A stretch of 64,000 nucleotides of DNA from Akkermansia biwaensis. GTDB lineage: Bacteria > Verrucomicrobiota > Verrucomicrobiia > Verrucomicrobiales > Akkermansiaceae. The DNA is taken from assembly GCF_026072915.1 (NCBI RefSeq), contig NZ_AP025943.1:2604001-2668000 (forward strand). Reading direction: 5' to 3'. The notes beneath the pieces are model-generated. The model searched no databases. It was given only the letters and a program-made list of their open reading frames with translations, and was not told where the DNA came from. Of this stretch, positions 1,086 through 50,972 are shown in pieces (positions within the stretch are counted from its first letter, which is position 1; each line of letters opens with the position of its first letter). Position numbers and translations under genes: made by a program.

Positions 1086-1089
1086 GAAA

Positions 1090-1450: not shown

Positions 1451-1471
1451 ATATGTATTGCCGGTATAGAC

Positions 1472-1501: not shown

Positions 1502-1528
1502 ATGATGTTTTACCGGATGTGATGCAAG

Positions 1529-1605
<77 letters not shown>

Positions 1606-9735: not shown

Positions 9736-9761
9736 GGAAACAGGTTGATGAAAGCAGCCAG

Positions 9762-23482: not shown

Positions 23483-26400
23483 ATGAAGCTTCATTTGCCT
23501 TTGCAACTGCTGTCCGCTGTGCTTGCCTGCTGCGCCCTTCTTTCCACTCCCGCCTATTCCCTTGATCTGGGTGCCAATGAAACCATTACGGAGAATACGG
23601 ACTGGACGGAAAATACAAATGTAACGGCCAACGTCACCCTGACCATTAACCCGGACGTTACCGTTACCCAGGAGACGGGCTCCCTGGTCATTGGAGGGCA
23701 TACGCTGACGGTTGACGGCGGAGGCACGCTCAGCATTCTTAGCACTGCTACGGAACACACGCTGGCGGCAGACGGGCGCCTGAATATCCAGGGCGGCTCC
23801 ACGCTGGACCTGACGGCTCCGGATGCACGCCTTTCCGTGGCGCAGGATGCCAACTGGACCCGGTTCATCATCTCCGTAGCGGATAACAGCGTGTTGAAAA
23901 CACGCAGCATGGCGGCAGGGGATTACGTATTCGGGGCCAGACTGACCAATAAGGAAAATTTGCTCCTGTCCGGCGGCGGCACCATTGAGGTGACGGCCAC
24001 TGCGGCGGAAACGATATCCAACATCGGCTTTACCGTGAATGAAGGCGGCGGCAGTTACCTGGTAACCAATGCGGGAACGACGGTAAAAATGATTCTGAAC
24101 CCGGAAAAGACCATTCAGGCCGTTCTAAATGACGTGCTGACCCTGGGCGGTGCGGGTAATATCGAAGGAGGGGACGCGAATGACATGTTCATCGGGAACG
24201 GAGGACTGAAAAAAGTGGGGACCGGTACGCTGACATTGAAATATGCCAACTCCTTTGGCGGCGGTGTGGAACTGAATGGAGGCACGCTGATTGTGGATCA
24301 TGCCGACGGCATGGGGACGAACAAGGTTCTTTCCGTAACGGGCAATGCGGCCATTGGAGGCACGTCCGCCGCGTATCAGGGGCTTTCCCTGTCTTCCGGC
24401 GTCAGTCTTGACGTTTCCGCGGTGGATACCGGTGCGGGGTTGACCATTGCCTCCGGCAGTGTTTCCCTGGGCGCACAAAGTTCAATCACCGGCAATCTGG
24501 TTTTAAACGAGGGTTCCCTGTCCCTGGGCGGCCAGAACACGATGACCGGCAATCTGAGTCTGGGAACCGGCCTGTTCATTGATGCCAGCCATATGACGAA
24601 GAACGGGGACGCCCTGCTGGCGCTGACCGGCGCTTTGACGGTGAACGGCAGTCTTCTGCTGGAGAATGCAGACGGCGTTTCCTGGAGCGCCGGAACGTAC
24701 AACCTGATCAGCGCCACGGAAGGCGTTACCGGGGATCTGGCCAACACCATCCTGCTCGGAACCCAGTATATGGGGAATTGGGATACGGCGGACAATGTCC
24801 TGAAATTCGTGGTGACGGAACTGACCTCCATAAGCTGGACGGGCGGAGGGGACGCTACCTGGACGGTGGGGGGAAGCGGGACCAATTCTCCATGGAGCGC
24901 CGGGAGCACTTTTGAAAACGGCATGGGAGTATCCTTTGGGGATATTGCCGGCAATCCTCCCCAGACGGTCAACATCACCGGGCAGGTAAATCCCGGCCTG
25001 ATTCTGGTCAATGCGGAATCCACCGATTACACATGGACGGGAACAGGCTCCCTTACGGGAAGCTCCAAGCTCCAGAAGACCGGAAACGGAACACTGACAA
25101 TCGCCACGGACAACTCCGGTTTTTCCGGAGAAGTCCTGCTGGGCGGCGGCCTGGTGGAAATACAGAACGCCGGGGCGCTGGGCACGGGGGACATTGTTTT
25201 CAACGGCGGCGCCCTCAAATACGGAACGGGCATTACGACGGACATCTCCGGCCAGCTCAAGACGGATGCCCTGGCAAGCAATGCCATCCTGGTGGATACC
25301 AACGGGAATGCCGTGACATGGGCCTCCCTGGCGGGATGGGCCGGAACGCTCACCCGTTCGGGAGAAGGCAGCCTGATGCTGGGCGCAGGCACTTATGAAG
25401 GAAAGCTGACGAATGAAGGGGCGGGTTCCCTGACCATCGGAGCGGGAAATGCTTCTCTGACCGGCGGTATTGGCGGTACCATAAGCAAGACGGGAGACGG
25501 CACCCTGACTATCAACAGGAATACTTTTATCAATTCCAACGGCTCCACGCTGGTGGTGGAAAGTGGGACTCTTTCCCTGAGGCAGGATGAAGCGGCTTGG
25601 ACTGGAACCATGAATATCGTGCTGGGTGAGAACGTAACGATGAACGTTCCCTACGGCGTAGGAGTGAACGGAACGGGAACGTTGACCATGGGCAGCGGAA
25701 CCACCTTGAATTTGAACAACGGGAGCGGTACTTCCAATACATTCAATATGAATATCGTTCTGGATGCTGGAGAGGGATTGGTTTCCCTGAGAGGATCTCT
25801 CTACGGCAACAAAACATCCGTGGGAAGCACGATCAGCGGTACGGGCAATTTGAGGATTACGCACCTTGATAACGGTGGTAATGACTGGAAATTCAACGGA
25901 GGCTGGGTGAAAAACTCCTATGACGGTAATACGGAAATCATTGCTACTGACAGGCAGCTTAACTTGACCTATGACATAGGAAGCGCTTCGGTTACGGGCG
26001 GACAGACGGTGACTCCCTGGGGACAGGGAGACGTCACAATCGGCGGAGGAGCGAATACCATGACGGTGACATTCAGCGGGGTGGGCGGTACCGCTGCCTC
26101 AAACGGAATTTCCCTGGATGGAAATATTACCCTGAAAGGGGCCAATGCCGCCACGCGGCTGAACATTTTTGCCGGGTCGGCCGGAACCATGACTCTCAAC
26201 GGCCTGGTATCCGTAGAAACGTCCGGCACCGGAACGGCCACGATCGGCAGCGGTGACGGCCTGAGGATGGGAGGCGGTCTGGCCGGAACGGGAACGCTGG
26301 CAGTGGCCACCAGAAACAGCGCCGGAGCCCTGACGCTGGGAGGAGATGTCGCCGGATTTTCCGGAACGCTGAATCTGACCGGTTCCAACCTGTATCTGGA

Positions 26401-29400
26401 TGCGGATACGGCTTTGGGAGGAACGCTGAACGCCTCTTCCGCCAAAGTAACCGCTCTGCGAACCCAAAATGTGACGGGAACTTTGAATGCCGCCTCCCTG
26501 GCCGTTGACGGAACCGCCCTGAGTGCGGCCGGAACCGTCCTGACGGTGGCCAACCTGGCGCTGGGCGCGGATGCAGAAGTAAGCCTGAATATTGACGGCA
26601 ACGTGGCCGAAGGGACATACACGCTGGTGGGTTGGGACAACCTGATGTCCGGGAACTTTGTGGATGCAAACTCCATGACCCTGACCGGAACCCTGGCGGG
26701 CCTGTATCAGGGCACGTTCACCGTGGATACGGCTGGCAAGACGGTATCCGTCAGCGTGAGCATGGCGGATGGAGTGATTGTCTGGGACGGCAATTCCATC
26801 GGCGCGGTGGACAACACCAAAACATATCTGTTCGATGGAAGCCATACGGGCGACGTCTCCCTGACGGGAAATATGAACGCGAAGGCCATCTACTTCAACA
26901 ACGGCGCGGGGCAGGACTTGGTACTGACCAACAATGGCGGTGAACTCTCCGGCAATGGCGCGATGACCAAGCTGGGCGAAGGCAAGGTAAGCTTCAACAG
27001 TTCCAATGAGGCCTACTCCGGAGCGGTTGGCATCAAGGAAGGCACCGTAGCCGTCAACGCGAACAAGGCTTTGGGAATCGGAACGGTGACCGTGGATGCG
27101 CCGGGACGCCTGGAAATCGGCGTGACGGGCGACATTGCCGACATTCTCGGCGCCACGATGCCCACGATCAACGGAGGAACGATTGCCTTTGTTTCCGGAG
27201 GAGCCAACGCGCTGGGAACCAACCTGGCAAACGGTTCCGCCGTCAATCTGGAAGTGCTGGGTGAAAACACCGTGTTGACCATCAGCGTTAATCAGACGAA
27301 GACCGCTTCTACGTATGTTGGAAATGGAGCGTCCCTGTTCATTGACGGAGGCGGTACGAACACCAGGCTCACGGGCAGTTTAACAGTCAATGGCGGCATC
27401 CTGACAACGACGGGGGATTCCTTCGGCTACAGCGGCACCACGCTCAACTCCCTCCTCCTTGAAAACGGAGCCACGTGGACGATAGGCAACGGCACCGGGC
27501 ACAATACGCTGCTCAATTCCAATATTATCCTGAACAACAGTTCCATTCTCGTCAATACCACCGGGAAGGGCTTTTACCTTTTCGGCGGCAATCACAGGAT
27601 TTCCACGCAGAGCAACGCGCTGGGCATGTCCCTGATTGCTGCTTCGGGAGATTACAGCAGCCAGAAAATGACCGTCAAGACCGCGACGACGTTTGATGTG
27701 TCCCGCGGCAATTTCACGCTGGATGAAACCAACACGGCCGACTTGAAGGTGGATGTGGGCATCGTCAGTGAAGCCGCCGTCGCCATCACCAAGCAGGGGA
27801 ACGGAATTCTTCAGTTGACGCGGGCCAACACGTACGCCGGACAGACCTTGATCAGGGAAGGCACGATCCTTCTGACGGGTGCCGGAAAGCTCGGGGCCGG
27901 AGCAGTGACGCTGGGCGGCCTGGGTGACGCGACGCTGGCATACAACGTCACGGGAGACAACACGACAGCCAATGCCATCGGCGGAACGGGGACCATCACC
28001 CAGAAGGGAGCAGGCATCGTGACGCTCAGCGGAGCCAATACGTACGCCGGGACGACCCATGTGGAGGCCGGCACGCTGAAGGCCGGCAGCGCCACGGCCT
28101 TCGGGACCAGCTCGGTACTTCTTTCGTCCGGGGCCACGCTTGACATCGGAAACTATGCGCTCGGCAATGCCGTCGCGGTAAAGGCAGGCGCCTCCGGCGC
28201 TCTTTCCACGGCATCCGTCACCAGCGATGGCGGTACGCTGGGCAGCCTGACGCTGGGCAGCTATTCCCGGTTGAATGTCACCGGCAGCATGGCCCTGGCC
28301 TCCGGGGCGGAGCTTACCTTCGACATGACAGGGGTAACGGCGGGTGACAATGCGCTGGTGACGCTCACCGGCGGCCTGACGGTCAACGGAACGCACAAGC
28401 TAACCCTCTCCAACTACGAAACGCTTACCGATTCCGGGAGCTACTCCCTGCTGACGGTGGGAACCGGGACGCTCATGGTAGGCTCCTTCAATGTCGGAGA
28501 ACTCATTAACGAGACCCATCCGGAACTCACCTACATGCTGGGGCTCTCCGCGGACGGAAAGACGCTTCAGCTTAAAATAGAGTCCTCCGCGGACATGCTC
28601 ACATGGAATGGGACGGCGGATGCCGGAACATGGAGCGCCGACAACGTTTCCAACTGGACCTATGCGGGAAGCAGTACTCCTCCGACAAGCACGGACGGTC
28701 AGCCTCTGCTCTTTGACAACACGGCGGCCAACAAAGACGTGACGATCACGGGGAACGTGGCGCCGTCTTCCGTCGTGGTCAGCAACAGCGGTAGTAACAC
28801 CTACACCTTTGAAGGAAACGGCCACATTACTGGGGATACGACCATCCTTACCAAGAGGGGGGACGGAACGCTGGTCATCCGCAACACCAACAGTTATGGA
28901 GGTTCCACGTCCTTGGAAGGGGGCATCGTGGACATCAACGGGGACGGAGCGCTGGGAACGGGCTCCATCATCTTCGGGGGCGGTACGTTGCAGGCCTCCG
29001 GGAACGTGACGCTCACGCAAATCATGGTGCAGAAAAACGCCGCAGACGCCGTGAAACTGGCTGCCACAGGCGCCGATACGGTATTGACGGTGAACACCGG
29101 CGGCCAGGACAGCTTCCTGGGGCTTAACTGGAATGTTTCCGGGAACGGCAGCGTCGCGCTGGGCGACATTGCAGATACGAAGGTCCTTTCCGGCACCATC
29201 GCGGTGGCGGCCGGTTCCAAGCTCAACCTTTCCGGCGGAACGGAAATAGCGCTTTCCGGCATCCTCAAGAATATCTCCGGAACCCTGGAAAAGACGGATG
29301 GCGGCTCCCTGCTCATCAAGACGATCAACGGGAATGACGCGCTCAACGGAACCTTGCGCAACAGCGGGGCAGACATCGTCTTCTCCGGTTACGGAGCGGC

Positions 29401-32400
29401 TACGTCCAACCGGACTGTCACGGTCAATGGAATGCTGGATGCCTCCGTGGTCAATGCAACCTACGGCGTAACGCTGGACCTGAAACATTCCCAGGACATA
29501 GGCACGCTGCAAGTCGGCAGCGGAACCTTTGACGGCAACACGCAGGCCTCCGCAGTCATCGTCGGAACGGGGGTCACCCTCACCAGCAACAGCGTAACGC
29601 TGGGAGGAGACGTGGCCGGTGAACTCAACATTGCGGGGGGAACGGCGCAGCTGGGTGCTCTCGCTTTCAGCGGAACGGCCGGCTCCGGCATTACGCTGAA
29701 CGGCAACGGTACGCTTACCATGGGCGGCAACATCACCGGAACCTCCGGTACGCTCACGCTGGGAGAAGGCACGCTCAACTCCAGTGCGGCCTGGTCCGCG
29801 GAAAGCGGAGTTGTGCTCAACGCGGCGCAGGGCAAAACCGCCACGGTAGACACCACGGGAGGGAACATCACCCTCAACGGCGCATTTAGCGGAACGGGCA
29901 GCCTCGCTAAAACAGGAACGGGCCAGCTCAGCCTTGGCTCAGCCAGTGCGGACTACGCGGGAACCGTAACGCTCTCTTCCGGCACGCTGGCCTTCCTGGC
30001 AGGGGCCGACGGTTACAAGGGCGCTCTCAACATCACCGGCGGCGAACTGCAGGGCGGCCAATACTACAGCGGCGCCAGCAAAAATGTCACCGTCAATGCG
30101 GCGGCCGGAGTCAGTTCCATCTCCCTGGGCGGTTTGAACGGCTCCTCGCTCAAATCCATAGATATCACGGATGCCGGTACGGTCATCAGCGGCATCAACG
30201 GGGCGGCCAGCCTGGACAGCGCCAATCTGGTCGTCGGCACGGACAATGTCGCCAAGACGCAGGACCTGGCAGGCAGCGATTCCATCATTCAGTTCAATGA
30301 GAACGGAGCTACGCTGGACATCGCCAGCCTGACGCTCTCCCTTTCTGCGGACGTGGTCAACGCCATGCAGGGCTGGGGAGCCGGAGAACGCACCGCATGG
30401 CTCAACCTGACCAACGGATCTCTGAGTTACGGCACGGCCACCTTCAACCCGCTTCTGGAAGGCCTGGGCTTCACCGTCACGGGTATCAACGGCGGCTCCA
30501 TCGGTATCACGGGCGACGCCACGCAGATCTATGCGGTGGGCAGTGAAGACAAGGAAATCACCAGCAACGCGGAACTTGATCCCTACCGGGCGGTTATTGT
30601 GGACGGCAATCTGGCCCTCAACCTCCCTGGCGTGGATGACGAGGCGGAAGGACTGACCATCAACAACCTTTCCGGAGCGGCTTCCGGAGTGATCACCATT
30701 ACTGCAACCGATGACAAGACGGCCTCCGTCATCCTGAACAACGAACTGCTGGGAAATGATCCCAATACGTCCGGGCCCGACACGAAATACGCCGGAACCA
30801 TTAACGGCGGCACGGCCAATATCACCAAGACGGGTGCGGGTTCCCTGGAACTTTCCGGCAGCCTGAACACGGACGGCGCGCTGGACATGCGGGAAGGCAG
30901 CCTGACGCTTTCCGGCACGGCGGACCTAGGTTCTATCGTACTTGACTCTAGGGAGGCGGACAGTCTCTCCACCCTGAACGTCACCGGCACGGCAACTGCC
31001 GGAACGCTCACGGATGAAGGCAACGGAGGAACGCTCAACATTGGCGGGGACGGCAAGCTCACGCTTGATACGGCAGGTTCCGAACTCTCCAACAGCACTG
31101 TGACGGGTTCCGGTACGCTCCAGGTGGCGGACAACGCCTCCCTGCTATTCAACGGCACATCCAAGCTTGACGGCGTACAGGTGGAGCTCTCCACGGACGG
31201 AATGCTGGAACTTGACAACGCGGCTAACAGCCTCTCCGGTCTTACGGGGAACGGAAGTCTAAACAACGGTTCCGCCCTGGAAATCACCGCCTCCGGCAAG
31301 TCCGTCTTTGAAGGCTCGCTGACCGGGGAAGGCAGCATCACCATGAACGGAACGGGTACGCAGACTCTCAAGGGCAGCGGCTCCGCCGGGCAGTCCCTCA
31401 ACGTTACGAAGGGAACCCTGGAGCTGATGGGCGCTGAAGGGGGCAACGGTTCCGTCACCTACAAGACGCTCACGGCAGGTACCGGCGGCCATGTGCGCCT
31501 CACGGCGGTGGGTGACGGCGTGGACGCTGTCAACACCACGCTGACGGTCGGCAACGGCCTCAATCTGGCGGGAGCCAATCTGGACCTGGTCATCAACACC
31601 AACAGGGACGACCTCTTCGCCAACCCCGTCATCACGGTTCTGGCAGGGAACGTCAACCTGAACGGCACCACTGTTTCCCTGGACAGCCTGGGCGACTACG
31701 ACGACCCGGCGGACCCGACGGCCAACCTCAACTTCATACTGGTGGACGCGCAGGGTGCTGGCGGTACGGTAACGGCTGACGGCGCTTCGGTGACGTCCTC
31801 CGGCTACTTTGACTTCTACTACCAGGAACTCGGCATCCGTGCGGAAGGCGGGAAAATCATCGTCAGCGGCATGGTCAAGACGGACAACGCCTTCATGGAC
31901 GCGGCGGATACGGCCAACTCCGCGGCGGGAGCCAACCTTCTGTGGAACAACCGCGGCAACGCGCCCAAGGGTACGGTACTGGGAGACCTGCGTGAAGCAG
32001 TGCGCAACAGCATCCAGTCCGGCGACTCGGGACAGGCCGCCCGTTCCATGGCGGCGGCGGCGGGCTCCACGGTCAACGCCCTGGGCACTGCCCAGCGCGA
32101 CGCCCTGCGCGAACAAATGGGATGGATACGCAACCGCACCAACCAAATGGGCGTCAACCCCGCCTACATCAACGAAGACCTTCCCTACTTCCACATGTGG
32201 ATGGAAGGCACGGGCTCCTACGCCCAGCTGGACACTAAAGGTGATGAAAGCGGCTACAAGCTCACCACCTGGGGAGGCACCTTCGGGGTGGACGTGGACC
32301 TCAGCGACTCCTTCACGATGGGGGCGGCCTTCACGGCCAACTACGGCGACCTGACGGCCAGCGCGGCGGACACGGCCGATGGCCACCTGGACAGCTACTA

Positions 32401-33034
32401 CGCCAACCTCTTCGGGCGCTACCAGAGCAAGAGATGGGCCCACACGCTCATCCTGACGGGCGGGTGGAACGACGCCAAACTCAACCGGACGGTGGACTAC
32501 GGAGCGGGCAGCTACAGAACGGAAGGCAGCACCAACGGCTGGGGCCTTGGAGCGATGTATGAACTCACCTACGACATCTACCTCAACGAAAACAGGAGCA
32601 GCATCCTGCAGCCCCTGTTCAACGCCTCGGTGGTGACAACTCGGATGGACGGCTACCGTGAAACGGGAGCGGGCAACGCGGGTCTGAGCGTGGACAAGCA
32701 GGAATGGACGACGGGCACGCTTGCGCTTGGCGGCCGGTGGATGGGTCTTGTAGGCAGCAACCTCTTCGGGAGGGAAGCGCTGGCGGAACTGCGTGTCAAC
32801 GCGGCCCAGGACCTGGGAGACGACCGTGGAGAAACGGCAGTGGGCTTCCTGGCCAACCCCGGCTACACGCAGCAAGTGCGTGGAGCGAAGGTAGGGAGGA
32901 CGGCGTTGCAGATAGGAGCGGGTCTGAGCGTGCCAGTAGGGACGCAGGGAACGATCTTTGTCAACGGCAACGCGGACATCCGAGACGGAGCCAGCTCCCT
33001 GAACGGAAGCATAGGCTACCGCTACGACTTCTAA
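23483..33034 (+). CDS. giant autotransporter with beta-strand-repeat passenger, 3183 aa
   Basis: A type V secretion protein. It has a signal peptide (MKLHLPLQLLSAVLACCALL, cleavage near residue 26) and a passenger of about 2850 residues rich in G, N, T and S. The C-terminal 280 residues (about 2905-3183) form an outer-membrane barrel ending in YRYDF, the final Phe needed by the BAM machinery. The passenger is built from autotransporter-associated beta-strand repeats with the core 'K.GnGTLtL...N.ysG...l.gGtL'. Examples are KVGTGTLTLKYANSF, KTGNGTLTIATDNSGF, KQGNGILQLTRANTYAG and KRGDGTLVIRNTNSYGG. This predicts a very long beta-helix displayed at the cell surface. Ligand or activity is unknown. 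The barrel cassette is nearly identical to that of the next autotransporter (33599-39463). Transcription probably starts from the A+T-rich leader. Confidence 0.93.
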   Translation: MKLHLPLQLLSAVLACCALLSTPAYSLDLGANETITENTDWTENTNVTANVTLTINPDVTVTQETGSLVIGGHTLTVDGGGTLSILSTATEHTLAADGRLNIQGGSTLDLTAPDARLSVAQDANWTRFIISVADNSVLKTRSMAAGDYVFGARLTNKENLLLSGGGTIEVTATAAETISNIGFTVNEGGGSYLVTNAGTTVKMILNPEKTIQAVLNDVLTLGGAGNIEGGDANDMFIGNGGLKKVGTGTLTLKYANSFGGGVELNGGTLIVDHADGMGTNKVLSVTGNAAIGGTSAAYQGLSLSSGVSLDVSAVDTGAGLTIASGSVSLGAQSSITGNLVLNEGSLSLGGQNTMTGNLSLGTGLFIDASHMTKNGDALLALTGALTVNGSLLLENADGVSWSAGTYNLISATEGVTGDLANTILLGTQYMGNWDTADNVLKFVVTELTSISWTGGGDATWTVGGSGTNSPWSAGSTFENGMGVSFGDIAGNPPQTVNITGQVNPGLILVNAESTDYTWTGTGSLTGSSKLQKTGNGTLTIATDNSGFSGEVLLGGGLVEIQNAGALGTGDIVFNGGALKYGTGITTDISGQLKTDALASNAILVDTNGNAVTWASLAGWAGTLTRSGEGSLMLGAGTYEGKLTNEGAGSLTIGAGNASLTGGIGGTISKTGDGTLTINRNTFINSNGSTLVVESGTLSLRQDEAAWTGTMNIVLGENVTMNVPYGVGVNGTGTLTMGSGTTLNLNNGSGTSNTFNMNIVLDAGEGLVSLRGSLYGNKTSVGSTISGTGNLRITHLDNGGNDWKFNGGWVKNSYDGNTEIIATDRQLNLTYDIGSASVTGGQTVTPWGQGDVTIGGGANTMTVTFSGVGGTAASNGISLDGNITLKGANAATRLNIFAGSAGTMTLNGLVSVETSGTGTATIGSGDGLRMGGGLAGTGTLAVATRNSAGALTLGGDVAGFSGTLNLTGSNLYLDADTALGGTLNASSAKVTALRTQNVTGTLNAASLAVDGTALSAAGTVLTVANLALGADAEVSLNIDGNVAEGTYTLVGWDNLMSGNFVDANSMTLTGTLAGLYQGTFTVDTAGKTVSVSVSMADGVIVWDGNSIGAVDNTKTYLFDGSHTGDVSLTGNMNAKAIYFNNGAGQDLVLTNNGGELSGNGAMTKLGEGKVSFNSSNEAYSGAVGIKEGTVAVNANKALGIGTVTVDAPGRLEIGVTGDIADILGATMPTINGGTIAFVSGGANALGTNLANGSAVNLEVLGENTVLTISVNQTKTASTYVGNGASLFIDGGGTNTRLTGSLTVNGGILTTTGDSFGYSGTTLNSLLLENGATWTIGNGTGHNTLLNSNIILNNSSILVNTTGKGFYLFGGNHRISTQSNALGMSLIAASGDYSSQKMTVKTATTFDVSRGNFTLDETNTADLKVDVGIVSEAAVAITKQGNGILQLTRANTYAGQTLIREGTILLTGAGKLGAGAVTLGGLGDATLAYNVTGDNTTANAIGGTGTITQKGAGIVTLSGANTYAGTTHVEAGTLKAGSATAFGTSSVLLSSGATLDIGNYALGNAVAVKAGASGALSTASVTSDGGTLGSLTLGSYSRLNVTGSMALASGAELTFDMTGVTAGDNALVTLTGGLTVNGTHKLTLSNYETLTDSGSYSLLTVGTGTLMVGSFNVGELINETHPELTYMLGLSADGKTLQLKIESSADMLTWNGTADAGTWSADNVSNWTYAGSSTPPTSTDGQPLLFDNTAANKDVTITGNVAPSSVVVSNSGSNTYTFEGNGHITGDTTILTKRGDGTLVIRNTNSYGGSTSLEGGIVDINGDGALGTGSIIFGGGTLQASGNVTLTQIMVQKNAADAVKLAATGADTVLTVNTGGQDSFLGLNWNVSGNGSVALGDIADTKVLSGTIAVAAGSKLNLSGGTEIALSGILKNISGTLEKTDGGSLLIKTINGNDALNGTLRNSGADIVFSGYGAATSNRTVTVNGMLDASVVNATYGVTLDLKHSQDIGTLQVGSGTFDGNTQASAVIVGTGVTLTSNSVTLGGDVAGELNIAGGTAQLGALAFSGTAGSGITLNGNGTLTMGGNITGTSGTLTLGEGTLNSSAAWSAESGVVLNAAQGKTATVDTTGGNITLNGAFSGTGSLAKTGTGQLSLGSASADYAGTVTLSSGTLAFLAGADGYKGALNITGGELQGGQYYSGASKNVTVNAAAGVSSISLGGLNGSSLKSIDITDAGTVISGINGAASLDSANLVVGTDNVAKTQDLAGSDSIIQFNENGATLDIASLTLSLSADVVNAMQGWGAGERTAWLNLTNGSLSYGTATFNPLLEGLGFTVTGINGGSIGITGDATQIYAVGSEDKEITSNAELDPYRAVIVDGNLALNLPGVDDEAEGLTINNLSGAASGVITITATDDKTASVILNNELLGNDPNTSGPDTKYAGTINGGTANITKTGAGSLELSGSLNTDGALDMREGSLTLSGTADLGSIVLDSREADSLSTLNVTGTATAGTLTDEGNGGTLNIGGDGKLTLDTAGSELSNSTVTGSGTLQVADNASLLFNGTSKLDGVQVELSTDGMLELDNAANSLSGLTGNGSLNNGSALEITASGKSVFEGSLTGEGSITMNGTGTQTLKGSGSAGQSLNVTKGTLELMGAEGGNGSVTYKTLTAGTGGHVRLTAVGDGVDAVNTTLTVGNGLNLAGANLDLVINTNRDDLFANPVITVLAGNVNLNGTTVSLDSLGDYDDPADPTANLNFILVDAQGAGGTVTADGASVTSSGYFDFYYQELGIRAEGGKIIVSGMVKTDNAFMDAADTANSAAGANLLWNNRGNAPKGTVLGDLREAVRNSIQSGDSGQAARSMAAAAGSTVNALGTAQRDALREQMGWIRNRTNQMGVNPAYINEDLPYFHMWMEGTGSYAQLDTKGDESGYKLTTWGGTFGVDVDLSDSFTMGAAFTANYGDLTASAADTADGHLDSYYANLFGRYQSKRWAHTLILTGGWNDAKLNRTVDYGAGSYRTEGSTNGWGLGAMYELTYDIYLNENRSSILQPLFNASVVTTRMDGYRETGAGNAGLSVDKQEWTTGTLALGGRWMGLVGSNLFGREALAELRVNAAQDLGDDRGETAVGFLANPGYTQQVRGAKVGRTALQIGAGLSVPVGTQGTIFVNGNADIRDGASSLNGSIGYRYDF
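32090..32889 (+). repeat. 800-bp barrel cassette, copy 1 (identical to 38519-39318)
   Basis: Read side by side, this stretch and 38519-39318 agree at every base (offset 6429, no gaps). It is bounded by mismatches at 32089 (T versus G) and 32890 (G versus A). Beyond these, the genes differ by a few synonymous changes up to their stops, and by much more on the passenger side. The match covers the linker and most of the barrel (about residues 2870-3136). Confidence 0.9.
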
Positions 33035-33088
33035 AGAAGGTTAAGGTGCCGGAGGAGCGGCGGAAACGCCGCTTCTGCTGCAAAACCA

Positions 33089-33128
33089 CAGGGCCGTCCG
33101 GGATGAACCGGGGCGGCCTTGTTGTTGG
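33089..33128 (+). terminator. terminator after the first autotransporter
   Basis: GGGCCGTCC and GGGGCGGCC arms with a GGATGAACC-type loop, then TTGTTGTTGG. It is the counterpart of the hairpin at 39521-39558, and the preceding bases (CGCTTCTGCTGCAAAACCAC) are shared too. Confidence 0.75.
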
Positions 33129-33138
33129 AATAGGGATG

Positions 33139-33215
33139 ATGGACGGAATGGACTTAGTGGACACAATGGAAAAGGGGAAACGTCACCTGTCCATTCCGTC
33201 CATTAAGTCCATTTC
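33139..33215. repeat. TGGAC/GTCCA inverted-repeat element, copy 1
   Basis: The left arm has repeated ATGGAC units (ATGGACGGAATGGACTTAG) and the right arm their complement (TGTCCATTCCGTCCATTAAG), with a short purine-rich centre. The arms can pair into a long cruciform or RNA hairpin. It follows the autotransporter terminator, as does a related element at 39558-39706. Confidence 0.7.
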
Positions 33216-33332
33216 CCTATTCCCCATTCCCTCCATAAAACATCTCCCTCGGAATTTCCTCCATACAATAAATATTTTGGAATAAAAACCACTATATTTT
33301 GATATAAAAAATATTCGCATTAATTTGAATAG

Positions 33333-33526
33333 CGGATTAAAAATCCGCTATGGAGCGGCAAAGTTGCCAATATACCAGAACCAGACCTCTTGTCTGTTTA
33401 TATTAATAAAGATAACACCATGCGGCATTCCTTTCGCGGACCAGATCAGGCCGGAAAAAAGCCCTTTTGAAGATGCGCAACACCTAGGGAATCAACGTTT
33501 AATCTTGTAGCAGGATTTTTAATCCG
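33333..33526. repeat. ~200-bp segment bounded by 14-bp inverted repeats
   Basis: CGGATTAAAAATCC at 33333-33346 and its exact complement GGATTTTTAATCCG at 33513-33526 enclose about 166 bases without a gene. The left end is itself part of a palindrome (AGCGGATTAAAAATCCGCT). It may be a small non-autonomous mobile (MITE/REP-like) element or a long-range RNA structure in the leader of the second autotransporter. Confidence 0.5.
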
Positions 33527-33543
33527 TTAGTAATCATAAAAAG

Positions 33544-33565
33544 CCTCCCGTGCTGGTTCGGGAGG
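33544..33565 (+). promoter_or_regulatory. hairpin in the leader of the second autotransporter
   Basis: CCTCCCG and CGGGAGG form a 7-bp stem with an 8-base loop, followed by AATTTT, 33 bases before the ATG. On the opposite strand it is followed by TTTTT. It could be an attenuator-like element of the autotransporter gene, an mRNA 5' stabiliser, or a terminator for minus-strand reading. Confidence 0.4.
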
Positions 33566-33598
33566 AATTTTCACCCTCATTTTCTCTAAGAAAAAGCT

Positions 33599-36500
33599 AT
33601 GAAGCTGCATCTTCCCCCTGCTTTGCTGTCCGCCCTGCTTGCATGCATGGCTATCGTCTCCGTTCCGTATGCACGCGCTGCTGAATATACGTGGCTGGGG
33701 CAGAATTCCGATATTCATGGAGCCAACAACTGGAATCCTTCCGTAGCGGACTGGGCGGCCGTCTGGTCGGGCACGGCTACCAATACCATGATTCTTGACC
33801 AGGGCAGCCTGACGGGCACCAGCAAGGAGCTTCAGGCTTCCTTTAATACGCTTTCCATTGGTGGGATTACCGTGACCGGAGGTTCGGACGGATTCAGCGT
33901 AGTCAAGGGGGGGGTATATAACCGCGCCGTCAATTTGCGTGACGGAGGGGCAGGATATACGCTGTTTGACATTGGCGGGGATTTTTCCCTGGGCAGTGCC
34001 GCTGCACCCTGGGCAAACGGCATCATCTTCAATGCCGATGCCCTGTTCAAGATAGCAGCCGGCAAGACCATGAACCTGTTTGGTCCTCTGGGCGTGGCGG
34101 GGGAAGGTTCCCGTACCGTAACCGTGGGCGCGGACGGCCATTCCGGTACCCTTATCCTGAATACGGCCGCCCAGGCCGGGATGAATGCGGACTGGGTAAT
34201 TACGGGAGGGGCTACGCTGCAGCTGAATAACGCCGCGGCCCTGGGCTCCGGCGCCGTCAACCTGAATGGGAGCCATTTGACGGCTCAGCAGGATACCACT
34301 CTCGCCAACGCCCTGACTATAGGCGGTTCGTCGGGCATGACGGTGAATACTGCCACGCAATTCTCCAATGTGATCCTTTCCAATGCCTCTTCCCTCAACA
34401 TGAACGGAGGAACGCTCTCCATTGCGGAATCCGGCTCTCTGTCTCTGGGAACTTCCGGTACCGTTACGGGGAACCTGACGCTTGGGAGTGGCTCCTTTTT
34501 GAATTTCTCCGCGTTGCCTTCCTCCGGAGCGTACCTGCTGAATGTCACCGGAACGCTGACCGTAAACAGCGAACTTCTTCTGGGGGAAGCAACGATCAGC
34601 GGCATGACCTGGGCGGCAGGTTCCTATGACATGATCAATGCGGGCACCATTACCGGGCTTCCGTCCAACTCCTTCATTCTGGGAGATAATTTGATGGGCT
34701 CCTGGAATACGGAAGGCGGAAAGCTTACGCTGGTGGTGGCGCAGGCAGCCCTGCTTGAGTGGAAGGGCGGCGACGGCGTCTGGTCCGCCACCGCTCCCAC
34801 TGCCTCCCCGTGGAAAAATAACGGCGTGTACACCAATGATGCCGCCGTCATCATGGGGGATATTGACGGCCATGCTCCGCAGACGGTGACCATTGACGGC
34901 GTCGTTTCCCCCACCATCGTGATGGTGCAGGCAAACGACACGGATTACGTATGGAATGCGGCTGAAGGCGGCGGCTCTCTGGAAGGCACGGCGAATCTGG
35001 AAAAGACCGGGAATGGCACGCTGACCATCAATACGGACAACACCGGCTATTCCGGCAAGATCATCCTGGGAGGCGGCGCAATTGAAATGGGCTCCGCTTC
35101 CGCTTTGGGCACCGGGGAACTGATGTTCGACGGAGGTACTCTCCGGTACGGCGCCGGGATAACGGCTGACGTTTCCGACCGGATTTCCGCCGCAAGCAAG
35201 GAAAACATCAAGGTGGACACCAACGGAAACGATGTGACGTGGGCTTCCGTGGACAGGTACAAGGGATTTGCCATGGAAAAGTCCGGGGACGGAACATTGA
35301 ACCTGGGCGCTGCCGTTTATACGAATGCGCTGACAGTGAACGGCGGCATTGTTTCCATTGCCTCCGGAGAAGTTCAAACGAGGTTTTCAGCGGGAATTTC
35401 CGTAAGCGCGGGGAGTTCCCTGGCCATTACCGGCTCTGTCAACGGCATTGCTTCGGGAAACAGCGCCAGTATCGTTATTAACGGTATGAGCGGTGCGGGC
35501 AGGATTGAACTGGATAACCAGGCGGCCAAATCCCGTTTTTACATTTCCGGAGATAATTCTTCCTTTACCGGGGAACTGGTGGCGACGGGATTGAACAACA
35601 ATCCGGGCAACACGAATGACGCCCGCGACATTCAGTTTGCGACCGCCGCCAGCATGGGGAGGGGTACGATCACCCTGAATGGACGCGGCTTCTGGCTGGA
35701 TAGCCCCAACACGGCGGATACCGCCGCCATGGCAACGATCAATGTGCTGGAGAAGGGAACCTACCTGAACGGGGGAAGCGGCAATTCCTATTATTTTGGC
35801 GGCGCGTTTACCGGAAGTGGCGAGGTGACAACCGCCATGGGCGGGGACAGTGCGTTCTGCTACCTCTTGGGGGATATGACCGGCTTTACGGGAAGCTTTA
35901 ACCACAGCAGTACTAACAGCGTCTATACCTGGGTATTTGGCAATGGAACTGCGGCTACTCTGGATAATGGCAAACTTTTCGGGGACGGGGTAATTTTGAA
36001 AGGCTCCAGCGGTACGGCAAAGTATAAATTTTCCTACTCGGACGACCTCGTTTTGATGAACGCCGCCGTAGGCGCTGAAGGCGCCCTAAACGCCGCAGTG
36101 GAACAGGCCGGAACCGGAACGCTGGTGCTGACGCAGGATAATACCGCCACGGGAACACTCACCATCACCAGCGGCAAGGTCCAGCTTGGAAACGGAGAGG
36201 CTGCTGGTTCCTGGACGGGGCAGATTACCGGGGCGGGGGAATTGCTGGTAAACAGATCCGCGGGTTCCCCTGTAATCAACCTGAATGCCTCCAATAACTA
36301 TGAGGGCGGCACTGTCCTGAACGGCGGCAGCGTAAAAGCGCTGGGCGCGGGATCCCTGGGTACGGGGGCCGTCACTGTCAACGGCGGCTCCACCCTGGAC
36401 ATGAACGGCCAGGCCGTGGCCAACAGCGTCACCATCACGAAGGGCGGTCTGCTGAACGCGGGGGCCTATGCCACGGCCGGCGGCGTGAACGTGAATGCGG

Positions 36501-39463
36501 AAGCCGGTTCCGGAGACATCAACCTGGGCGGCCTGTCCGGGGACAAGGTGGGCTCCATCAATACAACCACGGCGGGCACCGCCGTTACCGGCCTGACCGG
36601 AAACCTGACCCTGACAGGCGGCAATTCCCTGCACGTAGGGGTAAACAACACTTCCTACGCGGACGGGGGCGACCAGAAGAGCCTGCTTCAATTCAATGAC
36701 ACCGCTACTGGTACCGTCTCGTTCGGCGGGGACGCATCTGACCTGACGCTGCATCTGGACATTGATACGGACATCCTCATTGCCATGCGCGATCTGGAAT
36801 CCGTCGGTATCCTGCTCACCAACGGAACGATTGGCGGCTTGCCGTCGGACAATCTGGTTGAATGGCTTAACCAGCACCTGACCTTTAACGCCACGCTGGA
36901 AAGCCTCGGCTTCGGCATTCAGGGCGTGGAGGGCGGAAGCATCCTGATCTCCGGAAGAACGGACCAGATCTACATTGCATCGGAAGACGGGAACACGGTT
37001 ACCAGCATTCCGGCCCTGAACTCCTATTCCCAGGTCATCGTGAATACGGACCTGGCGCTGAATTTGGACGTACCCGCCGCCAACACGGACAAGACCATCA
37101 TCCGCCATCTTTCCTCCGGTACCTCCACCACGGGCAATCTGAACATCAACGCCACGGGGGACGGCTCCCTGAATGTGGAACTTGCCAACGACCTGGACAA
37201 CTCCGTATTCAACGGCAATCTCACGGTCAACGGCGAGCGTGTGGACCTGGTCAAGACGGGGAACAAAACGCTGACCCTTAACGGCAACGTCACCACGGCC
37301 AATTCCGTGGTCGCGCAGGAGGGGACGCTGGCGCTGAACGGCTCCGCCAACAGCATCGGCACGCTGAACCTTGCCTCCTCTGCAGATGGGGGGGCCAAGG
37401 TAGTTATCCGCGGCATCACCACGGCTTCCCTGGCGGATGACGCGGCAGGCGGCAGCCTGGAAATCGCCTCCGGGGGCACCCTGAAGACTACCGGAGATTC
37501 CACGCTGGACCGGGCCACTTCCATTTCAGGGGCGGGAACGCTGAATGTTCAGGAAGGTTCCAGCCTGACTCTGTCCGGTGAAGCCGGGCTGTCCGGCACG
37601 TCCGTCACGCTGAATGGAACCCTGAGCCTGGACGGCACGGGGGACAAGTCCATTCTGCGGCTGTCCGGTTCCGGCGCTCTGGACTTGAACGGGAACACCC
37701 TGTCCATCACCTCCACCACGCCGGGAAGCGCCTCCTTCTCCGGCACTTTGCAGGGAGAGGGCACTCTGGACATCTCCGGAAAGGTCACTCAGGAAATGCG
37801 GACCGGGAGCACCGCGTACGACTTGAACGTGCATGACGGCGGCACGCTCGTCCTGAAGGGGACGGAGGCTTCCGCCAGACTTGACTACAGGAATGTGGCG
37901 GTGGGTTCTTCCGGCATCCTGCGCGTGGAAGCCACCGGCTCAGGCAGCGGAAACGCCAATACGGCCTTGAATCTGAACAGCATTGACTTCCAGAGCGGTT
38001 CCACCACGGAATTCGTGTACAACCTGAACCAGACGGACCCCTTCAACTCCGCCATGATCACGGCGGACTCCATCACCATCGGCGATGGAGCCCAGTTCGT
38101 GCTTGCCAACATGGCGGGCAACACCGGCCTGGGCACGTATGATAACCTGGAAAACGTGGTGCTGATGACGGCGGACCTGATCAATGGACTGGATGAAGGA
38201 GCTTCCCTTTCCATCGGAACCTCCGGACTTTTTGCCGTGTACTACAAGGATGCCGTCATGTCCAGGGACGGGGACAACATCGTGTTGAACGCCACCGTAC
38301 AGCAGGAAAACATCTTCACGCCCGCCGCTGACTCCTACAATTCGGCTGCCGGTTCCAATCTCCTGTGGGAAGCCAGAAACAATCTGGACGCCACTTCACA
38401 ACTGGGCCAGTTCATGAATGCCGTGAGCAACATGATCACGGGGGACGCACCGAATTTGGCCGGCGCATCCAGAGCGCTGGCGGCAGCGGCGGGTTCCACG
38501 GTCAACGCCCTGGGCACGGCCCAGCGCGACGCCCTGCGCGAACAAATGGGATGGATACGCAACCGCACCAACCAAATGGGCGTCAACCCCGCCTACATCA
38601 ACGAAGACCTTCCCTACTTCCACATGTGGATGGAAGGCACGGGCTCCTACGCCCAGCTGGACACTAAAGGTGATGAAAGCGGCTACAAGCTCACCACCTG
38701 GGGAGGCACCTTCGGGGTGGACGTGGACCTCAGCGACTCCTTCACGATGGGGGCGGCCTTCACGGCCAACTACGGCGACCTGACGGCCAGCGCGGCGGAC
38801 ACGGCCGATGGCCACCTGGACAGCTACTACGCCAACCTCTTCGGGCGCTACCAGAGCAAGAGATGGGCCCACACGCTCATCCTGACGGGCGGGTGGAACG
38901 ACGCCAAACTCAACCGGACGGTGGACTACGGAGCGGGCAGCTACAGAACGGAAGGCAGCACCAACGGCTGGGGCCTTGGAGCGATGTATGAACTCACCTA
39001 CGACATCTACCTCAACGAAAACAGGAGCAGCATCCTGCAGCCCCTGTTCAACGCCTCGGTGGTGACAACTCGGATGGACGGCTACCGTGAAACGGGAGCG
39101 GGCAACGCGGGTCTGAGCGTGGACAAGCAGGAATGGACGACGGGCACGCTTGCGCTTGGCGGCCGGTGGATGGGTCTTGTAGGCAGCAACCTCTTCGGGA
39201 GGGAAGCGCTGGCGGAACTGCGTGTCAACGCGGCCCAGGACCTGGGAGACGACCGTGGAGAAACGGCAGTGGGCTTCCTGGCCAACCCCGGCTACACGCA
39301 GCAAGTGCGTGGAGCGAAAGTAGGGAGGACGGCGTTGCAGATAGGAGCGGGTCTGAGCGTGCCGGTAGGGACGCAGGGGACGATCTTTGTGAACGGCAAC
39401 GCGGACATCCGAGACGGAGCCAGCTCCCTGAACGGAAGCATAGGCTACCGCTACGACTTCTAA
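33599..39463 (+). CDS. giant autotransporter with beta-strand-repeat passenger, 1954 aa
   Basis: A paralogue of the preceding gene. The signal peptide is MKLHLPPALLSALLACMAIV with likely cleavage after ARA (about residue 27). The passenger (about 28-1640) carries the same type of beta-strand repeats, for example KTGNGTLTINTDNTGYSGK, KSGDGTLNLGAAVY and QAGTGTLVLTQDNTATG. It ends in a barrel of about 278 residues (from 1677) closing with YRYDF. The passengers are only distantly alike; they align best around the block DTNGNDVTWASV, which matches DTNGNAVTWASL in the first protein. The last ~325 residues are almost the same. It likely displays a different surface beta-helix on an identical outer-membrane anchor. 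The leader holds a hairpin and an inverted-repeat element. The gene ends in a strong hairpin shared with its neighbour. Confidence 0.93.
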   Translation: MKLHLPPALLSALLACMAIVSVPYARAAEYTWLGQNSDIHGANNWNPSVADWAAVWSGTATNTMILDQGSLTGTSKELQASFNTLSIGGITVTGGSDGFSVVKGGVYNRAVNLRDGGAGYTLFDIGGDFSLGSAAAPWANGIIFNADALFKIAAGKTMNLFGPLGVAGEGSRTVTVGADGHSGTLILNTAAQAGMNADWVITGGATLQLNNAAALGSGAVNLNGSHLTAQQDTTLANALTIGGSSGMTVNTATQFSNVILSNASSLNMNGGTLSIAESGSLSLGTSGTVTGNLTLGSGSFLNFSALPSSGAYLLNVTGTLTVNSELLLGEATISGMTWAAGSYDMINAGTITGLPSNSFILGDNLMGSWNTEGGKLTLVVAQAALLEWKGGDGVWSATAPTASPWKNNGVYTNDAAVIMGDIDGHAPQTVTIDGVVSPTIVMVQANDTDYVWNAAEGGGSLEGTANLEKTGNGTLTINTDNTGYSGKIILGGGAIEMGSASALGTGELMFDGGTLRYGAGITADVSDRISAASKENIKVDTNGNDVTWASVDRYKGFAMEKSGDGTLNLGAAVYTNALTVNGGIVSIASGEVQTRFSAGISVSAGSSLAITGSVNGIASGNSASIVINGMSGAGRIELDNQAAKSRFYISGDNSSFTGELVATGLNNNPGNTNDARDIQFATAASMGRGTITLNGRGFWLDSPNTADTAAMATINVLEKGTYLNGGSGNSYYFGGAFTGSGEVTTAMGGDSAFCYLLGDMTGFTGSFNHSSTNSVYTWVFGNGTAATLDNGKLFGDGVILKGSSGTAKYKFSYSDDLVLMNAAVGAEGALNAAVEQAGTGTLVLTQDNTATGTLTITSGKVQLGNGEAAGSWTGQITGAGELLVNRSAGSPVINLNASNNYEGGTVLNGGSVKALGAGSLGTGAVTVNGGSTLDMNGQAVANSVTITKGGLLNAGAYATAGGVNVNAEAGSGDINLGGLSGDKVGSINTTTAGTAVTGLTGNLTLTGGNSLHVGVNNTSYADGGDQKSLLQFNDTATGTVSFGGDASDLTLHLDIDTDILIAMRDLESVGILLTNGTIGGLPSDNLVEWLNQHLTFNATLESLGFGIQGVEGGSILISGRTDQIYIASEDGNTVTSIPALNSYSQVIVNTDLALNLDVPAANTDKTIIRHLSSGTSTTGNLNINATGDGSLNVELANDLDNSVFNGNLTVNGERVDLVKTGNKTLTLNGNVTTANSVVAQEGTLALNGSANSIGTLNLASSADGGAKVVIRGITTASLADDAAGGSLEIASGGTLKTTGDSTLDRATSISGAGTLNVQEGSSLTLSGEAGLSGTSVTLNGTLSLDGTGDKSILRLSGSGALDLNGNTLSITSTTPGSASFSGTLQGEGTLDISGKVTQEMRTGSTAYDLNVHDGGTLVLKGTEASARLDYRNVAVGSSGILRVEATGSGSGNANTALNLNSIDFQSGSTTEFVYNLNQTDPFNSAMITADSITIGDGAQFVLANMAGNTGLGTYDNLENVVLMTADLINGLDEGASLSIGTSGLFAVYYKDAVMSRDGDNIVLNATVQQENIFTPAADSYNSAAGSNLLWEARNNLDATSQLGQFMNAVSNMITGDAPNLAGASRALAAAAGSTVNALGTAQRDALREQMGWIRNRTNQMGVNPAYINEDLPYFHMWMEGTGSYAQLDTKGDESGYKLTTWGGTFGVDVDLSDSFTMGAAFTANYGDLTASAADTADGHLDSYYANLFGRYQSKRWAHTLILTGGWNDAKLNRTVDYGAGSYRTEGSTNGWGLGAMYELTYDIYLNENRSSILQPLFNASVVTTRMDGYRETGAGNAGLSVDKQEWTTGTLALGGRWMGLVGSNLFGREALAELRVNAAQDLGDDRGETAVGFLANPGYTQQVRGAKVGRTALQIGAGLSVPVGTQGTIFVNGNADIRDGASSLNGSIGYRYDF
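38519..39318 (+). repeat. 800-bp barrel cassette, copy 2 (identical to 32090-32889)
   Basis: Direct-repeat partner of the cassette in the first autotransporter, in the same orientation and 6429 bp apart. It covers about residues 1641-1907. Recombination between the copies could delete the second passenger or swap passengers between barrels. Confidence 0.9.
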
Positions 39464-39520
39464 AGGAGGTCAAGACAGGAGTGGGGAGTGGTGTAAACAC
39501 CGCTTCTGCTGCAAAACCAC

Positions 39521-39558
39521 AAGGCCGCCCGGGATGAACCGGGGCGGCCTTGTTGTTG
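39521..39558 (+). terminator. terminator after the second autotransporter
   Basis: AAGGCCGCCC and GGGCGGCCTT form a perfect 10-bp stem, followed by GTTGTTGGG. It matches the hairpin after the first autotransporter, with compensating or improved pairing. Confidence 0.8.
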
Positions 39559-39706
39559 GGCGGGAATGGACACAATGGACTTAATGGACGGGTAGCGTTA
39601 GTAGGGTTAGTAGGCAGGAAGTGTTTTTTCTCCGTTTGGTCCATTACGTCCATAATGTCCACTCTGTCCATTTAGTCCATTTAGTCCATTTAGTCCATTC
39701 CGCCCC
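39558..39706. repeat. TGGAC/GTCCA inverted-repeat element, copy 2, with a 9-bp tandem array
   Basis: GGGCGGGAATGGAC at 39558-39571 pairs with GTCCATTCCGCCCC at 39693-39706 at the base of a long palindrome. Inside, ATGGAC units spaced by three bases face a tandem array of GTCCATTTA (39666-39692, three copies, then a variant). The right end touches the stop codon of the thioesterase gene on the other strand, so it lies between convergent genes. Confidence 0.75.
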
Positions 39707-40441
39707 CTAACCCCACTCCAGCACCGCCTCCGCGCGCAATTCATCTCCCTGCATGATATGGTGGCAGGTAAGATTTCCCTGGCGGAACAACAGGGACTTC
39801 ATCTGCTCTCCGGCATGGCTTTCCTTCCTGAAATGCAGGTGAATGCCCGTCAGGGCATGTTCTTCCTGCCACGCTTCCGGCAGAGATTCCAACGCCCAAA
39901 CCAGATAGGCAGCATTGTTGATATGGCGGTTGAAATCCATGTCCCGTTGTTCTGCCGTCCATTCCCGGATTTCCGGTTGAAGACCTTCTATGTCCATGCG
40001 GACAGGGGCGACCATCTCGCTACAGGGCGTCTCCGGGAATGGGCTGATGTATTTGTTCAGGGGAACGGGGCGCCTGCGGCGGATGTCGATGACGGCCCAG
40101 AGGCAGCTTGCCGCGATAATGCCGTTACCCTCCGCATCCCGGATTTCCAGATTGCGGCGCGCCTGAAGAGGGGAGGCCTGGGCTGTGCAGGTGCGGAGCT
40201 CCACAACCTCTTTCCAGGCAGGGCGGCGTCCGATGGTCATGTCCAGGCGCACCTCCACCCAGGCCAGCCCGCGGGACATGACAAAATCATAGCCGAATCC
40301 CAGGGCGGAGGCGTGTGCCTCCGCTATTTCCTGAAGCCAGTGCAGAACCGTTTCCGGCTTCATGAGGCCGTCCGGCCCGCTCTCATAACTGCGGACGGCG
40401 GCTTGCGTGGAAAAGGTCCCGGCGGCTTCAACATGTTTCAT
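39707..40441 (-). CDS. acyl-ACP thioesterase (FatA/FatB-like)
   Basis: The 244-aa protein has two hotdog folds in tandem, as in acyl-ACP thioesterases, which release free fatty acids from acyl carrier protein. The first half has the start YESGPDGLMKPETVLHWLQE and GLAWVEVRLDM. The second half holds DMDFNRHINNAAYLVWALES, containing the catalytic Asn and His of the 'NrHvNN' motif. Length fits bacterial members. It probably sets the chain length or supply of fatty acids. Its stop codon abuts the palindromic repeat after the second autotransporter. Confidence 0.85.
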   Translation of the reverse strand: MKHVEAAGTFSTQAAVRSYESGPDGLMKPETVLHWLQEIAEAHASALGFGYDFVMSRGLAWVEVRLDMTIGRRPAWKEVVELRTCTAQASPLQARRNLEIRDAEGNGIIAASCLWAVIDIRRRRPVPLNKYISPFPETPCSEMVAPVRMDIEGLQPEIREWTAEQRDMDFNRHINNAAYLVWALESLPEAWQEEHALTGIHLHFRKESHAGEQMKSLLFRQGNLTCHHIMQGDELRAEAVLEWG

Positions 40442-43310: not shown

Positions 43311-43313
43311 GTA

Positions 43314-44018
43314 TCAGGAAAGGAAGGATGAATTCCAGCGGTAGCCCTGGCTTCTGAGCGTCTCCAGGGAGGCGGCCGCCTTCGCGCCCAGCTTGTCACG
43401 CAGGCGCATGACGGTCATCTCCACGGAGCGCGTATCCGTCAGCCGCGGGTCCATGTCCCACACGCGGCGGAGCAGCTCGTCCCTGGTGATGACCCGGTTG
43501 GGATGGGTGGCCATGTAGCTCAGAAGCTCAAACTCGCGCGCGGTGAGGGTGGCCGTCTTGCCATCCTCAAATGTGAGCATGCGGTTGGCGCTGTCCAGCA
43601 CAGCGCCGGGAATGGTGATCTCCCTGATCTGGCGCGGCCGTTCCGGGGACCTGCGCAGCACGGCCTCAATGCGGGCGATCAGTTCCCGGATGCTGAACGG
43701 CTTGACAATGTAATCGTCCGCTCCCAGCTTCAGCCCCTGCACCCGGTCCTCCTCCTCCCCGCGGGCCGTCAGCATGATCACGGGCGTTCCGGGCCGTTCC
43801 TCGGACATGACCTGGAGCACCTGGAAGCCGTCCGCTCCGGGCATCGCCACATCCAGCAGGGCCAGGTCGAAATTGCGTTCCCGCACGGCCCTGATGGCCG
43901 CCAGCCCTTCCTCCGCGGCCAGCACCTCGTAGCCGGAGGCGGTCAGCACGTCCGTCAGGGCGTGCCGGATGCTGTCGTCATCCTCTGCAACCAGAATGGT
44001 GTATGTTAAGCTGCTCAT
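43314..44018 (-). CDS. OmpR-type response regulator
   Basis: The 234-aa regulator has a receiver domain with the acidic pair at Asp13/Asp14, phosphorylated Asp56 in LALLDVAMPGADGF, Thr84 in VIMLTARGEEE and Lys106 in YIVKPFS. A winged-helix DNA-binding domain follows, with LTAREFELLSYMATHPNRVI, then TRDELLRRVW and VEMTVMRLRDKLG. It is the partner of the adjacent sensor kinase. The target genes are not visible in the window; it might regulate the small membrane protein just upstream. Confidence 0.95.
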   Translation of the reverse strand: MSSLTYTILVAEDDDSIRHALTDVLTASGYEVLAAEEGLAAIRAVRERNFDLALLDVAMPGADGFQVLQVMSEERPGTPVIMLTARGEEEDRVQGLKLGADDYIVKPFSIRELIARIEAVLRRSPERPRQIREITIPGAVLDSANRMLTFEDGKTATLTAREFELLSYMATHPNRVITRDELLRRVWDMDPRLTDTRSVEMTVMRLRDKLGAKAAASLETLRSQGYRWNSSFLS

Positions 44019-50527: not shown

Positions 50528-50972
50528 ATGCCGGAATGTTGTCATGCACGGCGTCCCTCGTGCCGCACGGTCGGGAATTGTCCGGAAAACGAATGTGGAA
50601 GGTCCCATGAAATCATGGAAGGAGGCCTTTTCCCGACCTTCTTCCTGTTCCGTCTTCATCGCACACGCGGGAAAGTTTCTGGACGAAAGGCGCGGAACGG
50701 AATACTATGGCCTCTGCATCGCAGCAGGCGAGGGTTGTCGGGACGGCTGGAACGACTTCGTGGCGGAACCTTCCTCCGTCCTTCTCACTCACCGCGCCAA
50801 CCCCCGGCTCACAGAAAAATCCCGGAACACCGGCGATTCCTGTAACGCTCAGGGTATCTTAGATTGACATCTCCCCATATACCATTTTAGGCGTGGAATA
50901 CGCATCTCCGCGGACAGGTTGGCGCAAAATACCCTTTGCGTGCCTGACTCTCAATATGTATATATCCCCGCC
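50528..50972. other. stretch between infC and the CRISPR array, including the probable leader
   Basis: No convincing gene. A 108-codon plus frame (50544-50867) has no ribosome-binding site or domain. The last 100 bases before the first repeat are A+T-richer and include TTGACA at 50864-50869. They fit a CRISPR leader, because the degenerate repeats lie at the far (right) end. Confidence 0.45.

Follow-up and report, generated by a model that had tools for sequence, protein, structure and literature searches.

Probable footprint of continuing gene conversion in the barrel cassette of tandem giant autotransporter genes of Akkermansia

The hom and bab genes of Helicobacter pylori are a close precedent for the autotransporter genes considered here. 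In homA/homB, segment 3 groups according to strain and segment 1 according to gene (PMC2795765; also PMC4552749), a pattern which these accounts call concerted evolution by gene conversion or intragenomic recombination and for which babA/babB are cited likewise; they also describe bab chimeras and a hom locus that is empty but still carries residual homology. As far as these descriptions go, barrel conversion in Akkermansia is the same kind of process. The H. pylori cases involve two or three loci of one species, whereas in Akkermansia at least five dispersed loci of one genome and several species are involved, the genes are type Va autotransporters and the usual border of conversion is at the junction of passenger and barrel. 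The tpsA/tpsC genes of Neisseria meningitidis are similar to those of Akkermansia in that recombination with related copies swaps a portion of a large secreted surface protein, with chimeras as a result; however, as reported in PMC3848433, they belong to two-partner secretion and shorter cassettes supply the new 3' end of tpsA, whereas in Akkermansia full genes share a C-terminal barrel. For Bartonella, the introduction of PMC11466379 states that virulence genes are copied, deleted and hybridised through intragenomic recombination with copies nearby; the results of that paper deal with a trimeric autotransporter adhesin gene and the simple sequence repeats in it. A survey of long-lasting concerted evolution in prokaryotes (PMC6053082) describes paralogues within a species that are more alike than orthologues, as is the case here, but emphasises genes of important pathways, and a word search of its main text returned neither autotransporter nor Verrucomicrobia. 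For Akkermansia muciniphila, nine outer-membrane proteins with an autotransporter barrel have been detected, as given in PMC4960237. No title on barrel conversion in Akkermansia autotransporters was found among the matches listed, with most subscription papers and all bioRxiv preprints outside the scope.

The window, i.e. the whole stretch of 64,000 nucleotides that was analysed, belongs to a genome assembled as a single contig of 3,175,525 bases (G000) and holds two giant autotransporter genes in tandem, A and B (Table 1). In B the autotransporter beta-domain PF03797 was matched with 138.7 bits over positions 1-254 of 255, which identifies a type Va C-terminal beta-domain. In A it scored 143 bits when the C-terminal 399 aa were scanned alone, and as the barrel was found with this part alone, the miss in the scan of full-length A is a search artefact. 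The PATR repeat (PF12951) exceeded the cut-off in the passenger of A (63.4 bits) and stayed below the cut-off of 27 in B (25.2 bits), and the autotransporter N-terminus reads MKLHLP followed by a hydrophobic stretch (by eye). Set against type Va autotransporters that have PATR in the passenger (Pfam PF03797, PF12951), the protein plan of A and B is ordinary except for size. The exact duplication reported in the first-pass annotation was confirmed at 800/800 bases with an offset of 6429, and so was the wide divergence of the two passengers (dN 0.70). Synonymous changes were indeed restricted to positions outside the tract; the last 945 coding nucleotides before the stop hold five of them (32089, 32890, 32935, 32950 and 32962) and no non-synonymous change. 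Two more exact runs lie beyond the tract (32891-32934 and 32963-33036), and while the figure of 800 nt holds for exact identity, the homologous unit of A and B is longer, from about 32050 to about 126-128 nt past the stop.

Table 1. Positions of the autotransporter pair, the shared cassette and neighbouring features in the window
Feature	Position	Strand	Remarks
Gene A	23483..33034	+	ORF, 3183 aa; giant type Va autotransporter, PATR passenger, C-terminal barrel
Gene B	33599..39463	+	ORF, 1954 aa; giant autotransporter, passenger unlike A, barrel same
Exact 800-nt tract, gene A copy	32090..32889	+	800/800
Exact 800-nt tract, gene B copy	38519..39318	+	800/800
Whole cassette (linker, barrel, 3' UTR), gene A	32050..33162	+	985 nt before the stop to ~128 nt after it
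Whole cassette, gene B	38479..39589	+	From pairwise homology ends and alignment
Cassette 3' UTR part after gene A	33054..33128	+	92% to 39485-39559
Cassette 3' UTR part after gene B	39485..39559	+	92% to gene A counterpart
Part of gene B 3' flank	39667..40029	.	86.5% copy adjoins gene C ~170 kb away
Acyl-ACP thioesterase gene	39707-40441	-	Overlapped by the recurring piece of the gene B 3' flank

The cassette of about 1.1 kb is common to six dispersed genes of G000 (A-F) and has a sharp start about 985 nt before the stop codon. The start fell at -985 to -1019 from the stop in 14 of the 15 pairs among A-F, the exception being B-C with -1915; in 12 of the 15 the homology stopped at +124 to +136, and in the remaining three at +143 to +211. 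In alignment the conserved unit opens with (M/L)AA(A/V)AGSTV, the linker ahead of the barrel. The longer B-C homology averages 82.5% and consists of a near-identical barrel and a passenger stem of about 58-71%. When the genome was searched with the DNA of the A cassette, identities were 98% for B, 99% for C (at 2472 kb), 98% for D (2549 kb), 96% for E (609 kb), 90% for F (842 kb), 75% for H (292 kb) and 69% for the distant gene I (1660 kb). Genes A-F and H are full ORFs, and the homology of H to the A-F cassette ends at the stop codon. The whole genome has 17 matches to PF03797 and these barrels are unequal in identity, which speaks against a tract that is equally identical among all barrels. 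The 3' UTR part of the cassette may act as a terminator, a role which we only infer; terminator scans named no site at 33054..33128 after gene A and no terminator-like site within 39350-39720 after gene B. The copy of the B 3' flank beside gene C (region G000:C1:2470500-2481500, oriented 9503-9863) includes a piece of the thioesterase gene. Gene C of G000 has a tRNA-Val gene upstream, and its location differs from that of C in G016, another Akkermansia genome.

Within the cassette, the copies of G000 resolve into patches. The alignment of A-E from -985 to +140 has 85 varying columns, in which B matches A at 32090-32889 and then C and D at 32890-33036; further on, B is on its own in the varying columns of 33037-33068, and over 33097-33172 most columns place it with C and D. 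Using the 55 substitution columns, the longest agreeing run was unlikely under column shuffles in eight of the ten pairs (uncorrected p <=0.013) and non-significant in the other two, B-C (0.057) and B-E (0.21). These eight pairs and gene C of genome G048 thus show the mark of gene conversion, a mosaic of clearly delimited patches between non-allelic copies.

The age of the pair was read from related genomes. Orthologues of A, B, C, E, F and H, almost complete in length and with matching passengers, are present in G016 (3 contigs), five of them with orthologous flanks and C placed elsewhere; the A orthologue shows 78.7% identity over 5373 nt and the B orthologue 77.8% over 5310 nt. A counterpart of D was present in G045. 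A and B form a tandem pair in four of the six genomes compared (G000, G016, G045 and G048). Because the G016 orthologues carry the same passengers and flanks, the tandem predates the species split, and the orthologous passengers of G016 together with the tandem of G045 and G048 place the paralogy before that split. For the same reasons an exchange of passengers between A and B in G000, which had been suggested along with conversion, found no support. Barrel dS among the A-E paralogues of G000 was 0.000-0.061 and rose to 0.22-0.25 when F, or about 0.9 when H, was the partner, whereas orthologous barrels of G000 and G016 gave 0.50-0.57 (H, 0.34), so neither chance nor constraint at the codon level explains the identity of A and B. 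Passenger dS between G000 and G016 was 0.87-1.17 for A, B, E and F, 0.28 for C and 0.40 for H. Gene C makes the border plain, as the last 1 kb of its passenger is 89.4% identical between the two genomes and the barrel only 83.7%. Gene C of G016 also resembles that of the Mouse_2 MAG at 91.8% over 13.5 kb including flanks, and the G016 C barrel clusters with barrels of other genomes; transfer of the C locus between species is possible.

For a wider comparison, 35 genes were taken from G000, G016 (3 contigs), G040, G041, G045 and G048 (1 contig each), one genome per species; the broken gene C of G048, the distant I, ten genes of G014, G043 and all MAG loci were left out, and loci in G040, G041, G045 and G048 were named by passenger likeness to G000, with flanks compared for some. 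On the barrel tree of the 29 non-H rows, species labels changed six times against a minimum of 16 and a mean of 19.4 in shuffles (n=200), whereas locus labels changed 21 times (X, a gene of G040, counted as C) with a shuffle mean of 18.7. An earlier tree of 24 rows, which included MAG loci, had six species and 16 locus changes (without shuffles). The nearest barrel was in the same genome for 25 of the 29 and in another genome for the other four (F of G000, G048 and G045, and C of G016). In contrast, the nearest passenger was in another genome and of the same passenger type for 34 of the 35 genes, X being the exception. With H rows and the X-C pair excluded, median barrel identity was 97.3% within a genome (56 pairs) and 84.7% for the same locus between genomes (61 pairs), so that paralogues are more alike than orthologues, as expected of concerted evolution. 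The within-genome medians were 97.6 (G000), 90.4 (G016), 98.1 (G040), 99.1 (G041), 94.5 (G045) and 95.4 (G048), and some exact runs exceed 800 nt (C-D, 951 nt; B-E of G040, 983; E-F of G041, 983). The six H barrels provide an internal contrast, as they form one clade separate from the other barrels of their genomes. Inside this clade G000 pairs with G045, whereas most other G000 genes are closest to G048, and because of this departure from the species pattern, transfer between species probably acts too. Judged from these sequence comparisons, homogenisation acts within each Akkermansia genome examined, i.e. the barrels undergo concerted evolution.

In sister genomes some tracts reach into the passengers. 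Gene C of G048 lies at the same place as C of G000 and is 90% identical to it over 8.1 kb. The two agree at 99-100% from -3000 to about -1.9 kb; from there through the barrel to about +490 the G048 gene matches B of its own genome at 100% per 150-nt window (gaps uncounted), and past about +490 it is again 99% like C of G000. The C-B match of G048 is 99.4% overall over 2411 nt (about 2.4 kb, from B into C). Given this switch of identity, and a B-C stem of only about 58-71% in G000, the passenger stem of G048 C appears to have been replaced by the B type over about 0.9 kb. The gene has a broken frame within the barrel in this assembly; the locus was at first read as D and is C with this broken frame. 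Gene X of G040 follows a 295-nt barrel 3' remnant, lies upstream of B and has its own barrel at the end. Its last 4.6 kb are 99.6% identical to gene C about 0.9 Mb away, with no difference at offsets 61 to 4596, and its head (first ~330 residues) has a distant likeness to B heads at 35-45% identity; an unrelated head for X was considered and rejected, the head being a distant relative of B heads. As heads and tails of C stay together in G000, G016, G040 and G041, copying from C to X is the probable direction. A seeming chimera in a MAG (L072, a B passenger with the D 3' flank) was given no weight, since the contig ends in the passenger and a repeat misjoin is possible; it is an uncounted row in the earlier tree with MAG loci.

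We propose that the 800-nt identity is very probably the recent footprint of continuing ectopic gene conversion, which would homogenise the cassette across dispersed autotransporter genes. The recent conversion put forward in the first-pass annotation is thus borne out and extends past A and B to more genes. The tract does not itself diversify the surface as had been proposed, as it homogenises the constant part; the chimeras C of G048 and X of G040, on the other hand, agree with surface diversification. In mechanism, RecA-type homologous recombination primed by barrel homology would copy tracts between loci, and the usual 5' end near -985 would be the point where homology to an unlike passenger runs out. 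Tracts that run further would replace part of the passenger and could thereby give rise to the chimeric passengers of the sister species.

A recent duplication of the barrel followed by passenger replacement, by which A and B would be recent mosaics, could account for the sharp start of homology near -985 in 14 of the 15 A-F pairs, for the head/tail chimera of G040 and for the like tails and unlike heads of G014, but the A-B pair predates the species (G016, G045, G048) and yet the G000 barrels are nearly identical, so we consider it very improbable. Hardly any weight can be given to very strong purifying selection, including at the DNA level, keeping the barrels alike without exchange. It would suit the absence of amino-acid differences between A and B over the last 315 codons; however, synonymous sites do diverge, both between orthologues (dS 0.34-0.57) and within G000, where F (0.22-0.25) and H (~0.9) have moved away from the others, and the identity extends past the coding sequence to the 3' UTR and shows patch boundaries.

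In any single assembly, the identity of a long repeat could be inflated by polishing with short reads or by collapse of the repeat, and the barrels of G043 were indeed mangled in an assembly. A merging of the copies into a single sequence in G000, through collapse or polishing, is nevertheless most unlikely, with copies that retain private differences at several places and within-genome likeness in six low-contig genomes, in varied tract lengths and pairs, even though weaker in G016 (median 90.4%). The combination of a constant barrel with a variable passenger, and the chimeric genes of G040 and G048, might also bring to mind programmed diversification, in which passengers are placed on an unchanging barrel by site-specific recombination or by a cassette system dedicated to this. 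Against it, upstream breakpoints (~-985, ~-1.9 kb and ~-4.5 kb) and downstream ends (+124 to +211; ~+490) vary, and the tract in the window homogenises instead of diversifying; we regard such a system as highly unlikely, and a site-specific one in particular is disfavoured since starts and ends of tracts vary between cases and no fixed site emerges. Silent-cassette antigenic variation (pilE/pilS, vlsE) draws on stored silent copies to rewrite an exposed region that varies. The window departs from this type, for here the constant barrel is what is exchanged; all seven family members of G000 (A-F and H) are full ORFs, and no silent store was recognised in the comparisons made.

Under ectopic gene conversion, a neutral by-product is enough for a homogeneous barrel, with no selection needed. 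We tentatively consider, as a less likely addition, that the homogenised barrel might serve as docking homology across the genus, by which unlike loci would be kept competent for recombination, stems reshuffled and passenger genes gained or lost at barrel ends. Gene X of G040, with the barrel remnant beside it and its own barrel, would then be an integration at such a dock, and gene C of G000 and G048, with a B-type 3' flank and a place unlike that of C in G016, might be another. If barrels, and at times stems, are exchanged between loci, best-hit orthology can no longer be trusted for these genes, they may be joined wrongly in short-read assemblies and MAGs, and the exchange would offer a simple, testable source of surface diversity among Akkermansia species. 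It would also be a multi-locus case in which the border of homogenised and diverging sequence usually lies at the passenger/barrel junction.

As for the fate of the pair, the direct-repeat layout had been said to permit deletion of the second passenger in one step, which is possible in principle, but A kept with B lost was seen in none of the six low-contig genomes. A is absent in G041, where B is present, and in G040, where X occupies its place. In G040, G041 and the Mouse_2 MAG, the position of A holds a barrel 3' remnant, which is presumably the scar of A. Loss of A via recombination between both barrels was considered and rejected, as such an event keeps A and removes B. In G016 a 617-nt match to barrel and 3' UTR without a passenger lies where D lies in CSUN-56.

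Genome G014 has 29 matches to PF03797. Ten giant genes examined from it (L101-L110) include two groups with tails alike at 94-99.9% over about 2-7 kb, most pairs being unlike upstream, although the likeness of genes 4 and 7 spans 11 kb; some of the ORFs, several in number, start near the edge of the examined stretch and may be incomplete. The tails would fit either conversion or a duplication followed by divergence. Barrels of G043 (L131-L136) are interrupted or duplicated in part, and one contains an unknown residue, so assemblies can fail at this repeat; the apparent F-B tandem of this genome, with its broken barrels, was set aside, as the unknown residue and misplaced barrel pieces point to assembly.

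Elsewhere in the window, a CRISPR-like array at 50970-51719 has at least 10 repeats (GTCGCACCCTCACGGGTGCGTGGATTGAAAC) with a 65-nt period; no PADLOC match and no cas gene beside the array were found when 12 of the 19 ORFs of at least 150 aa were scanned within 45.3-56.4 kb. Downstream of the autotransporter pair, a sensor histidine kinase and response regulator pair is encoded on the minus strand at 41673-44018.
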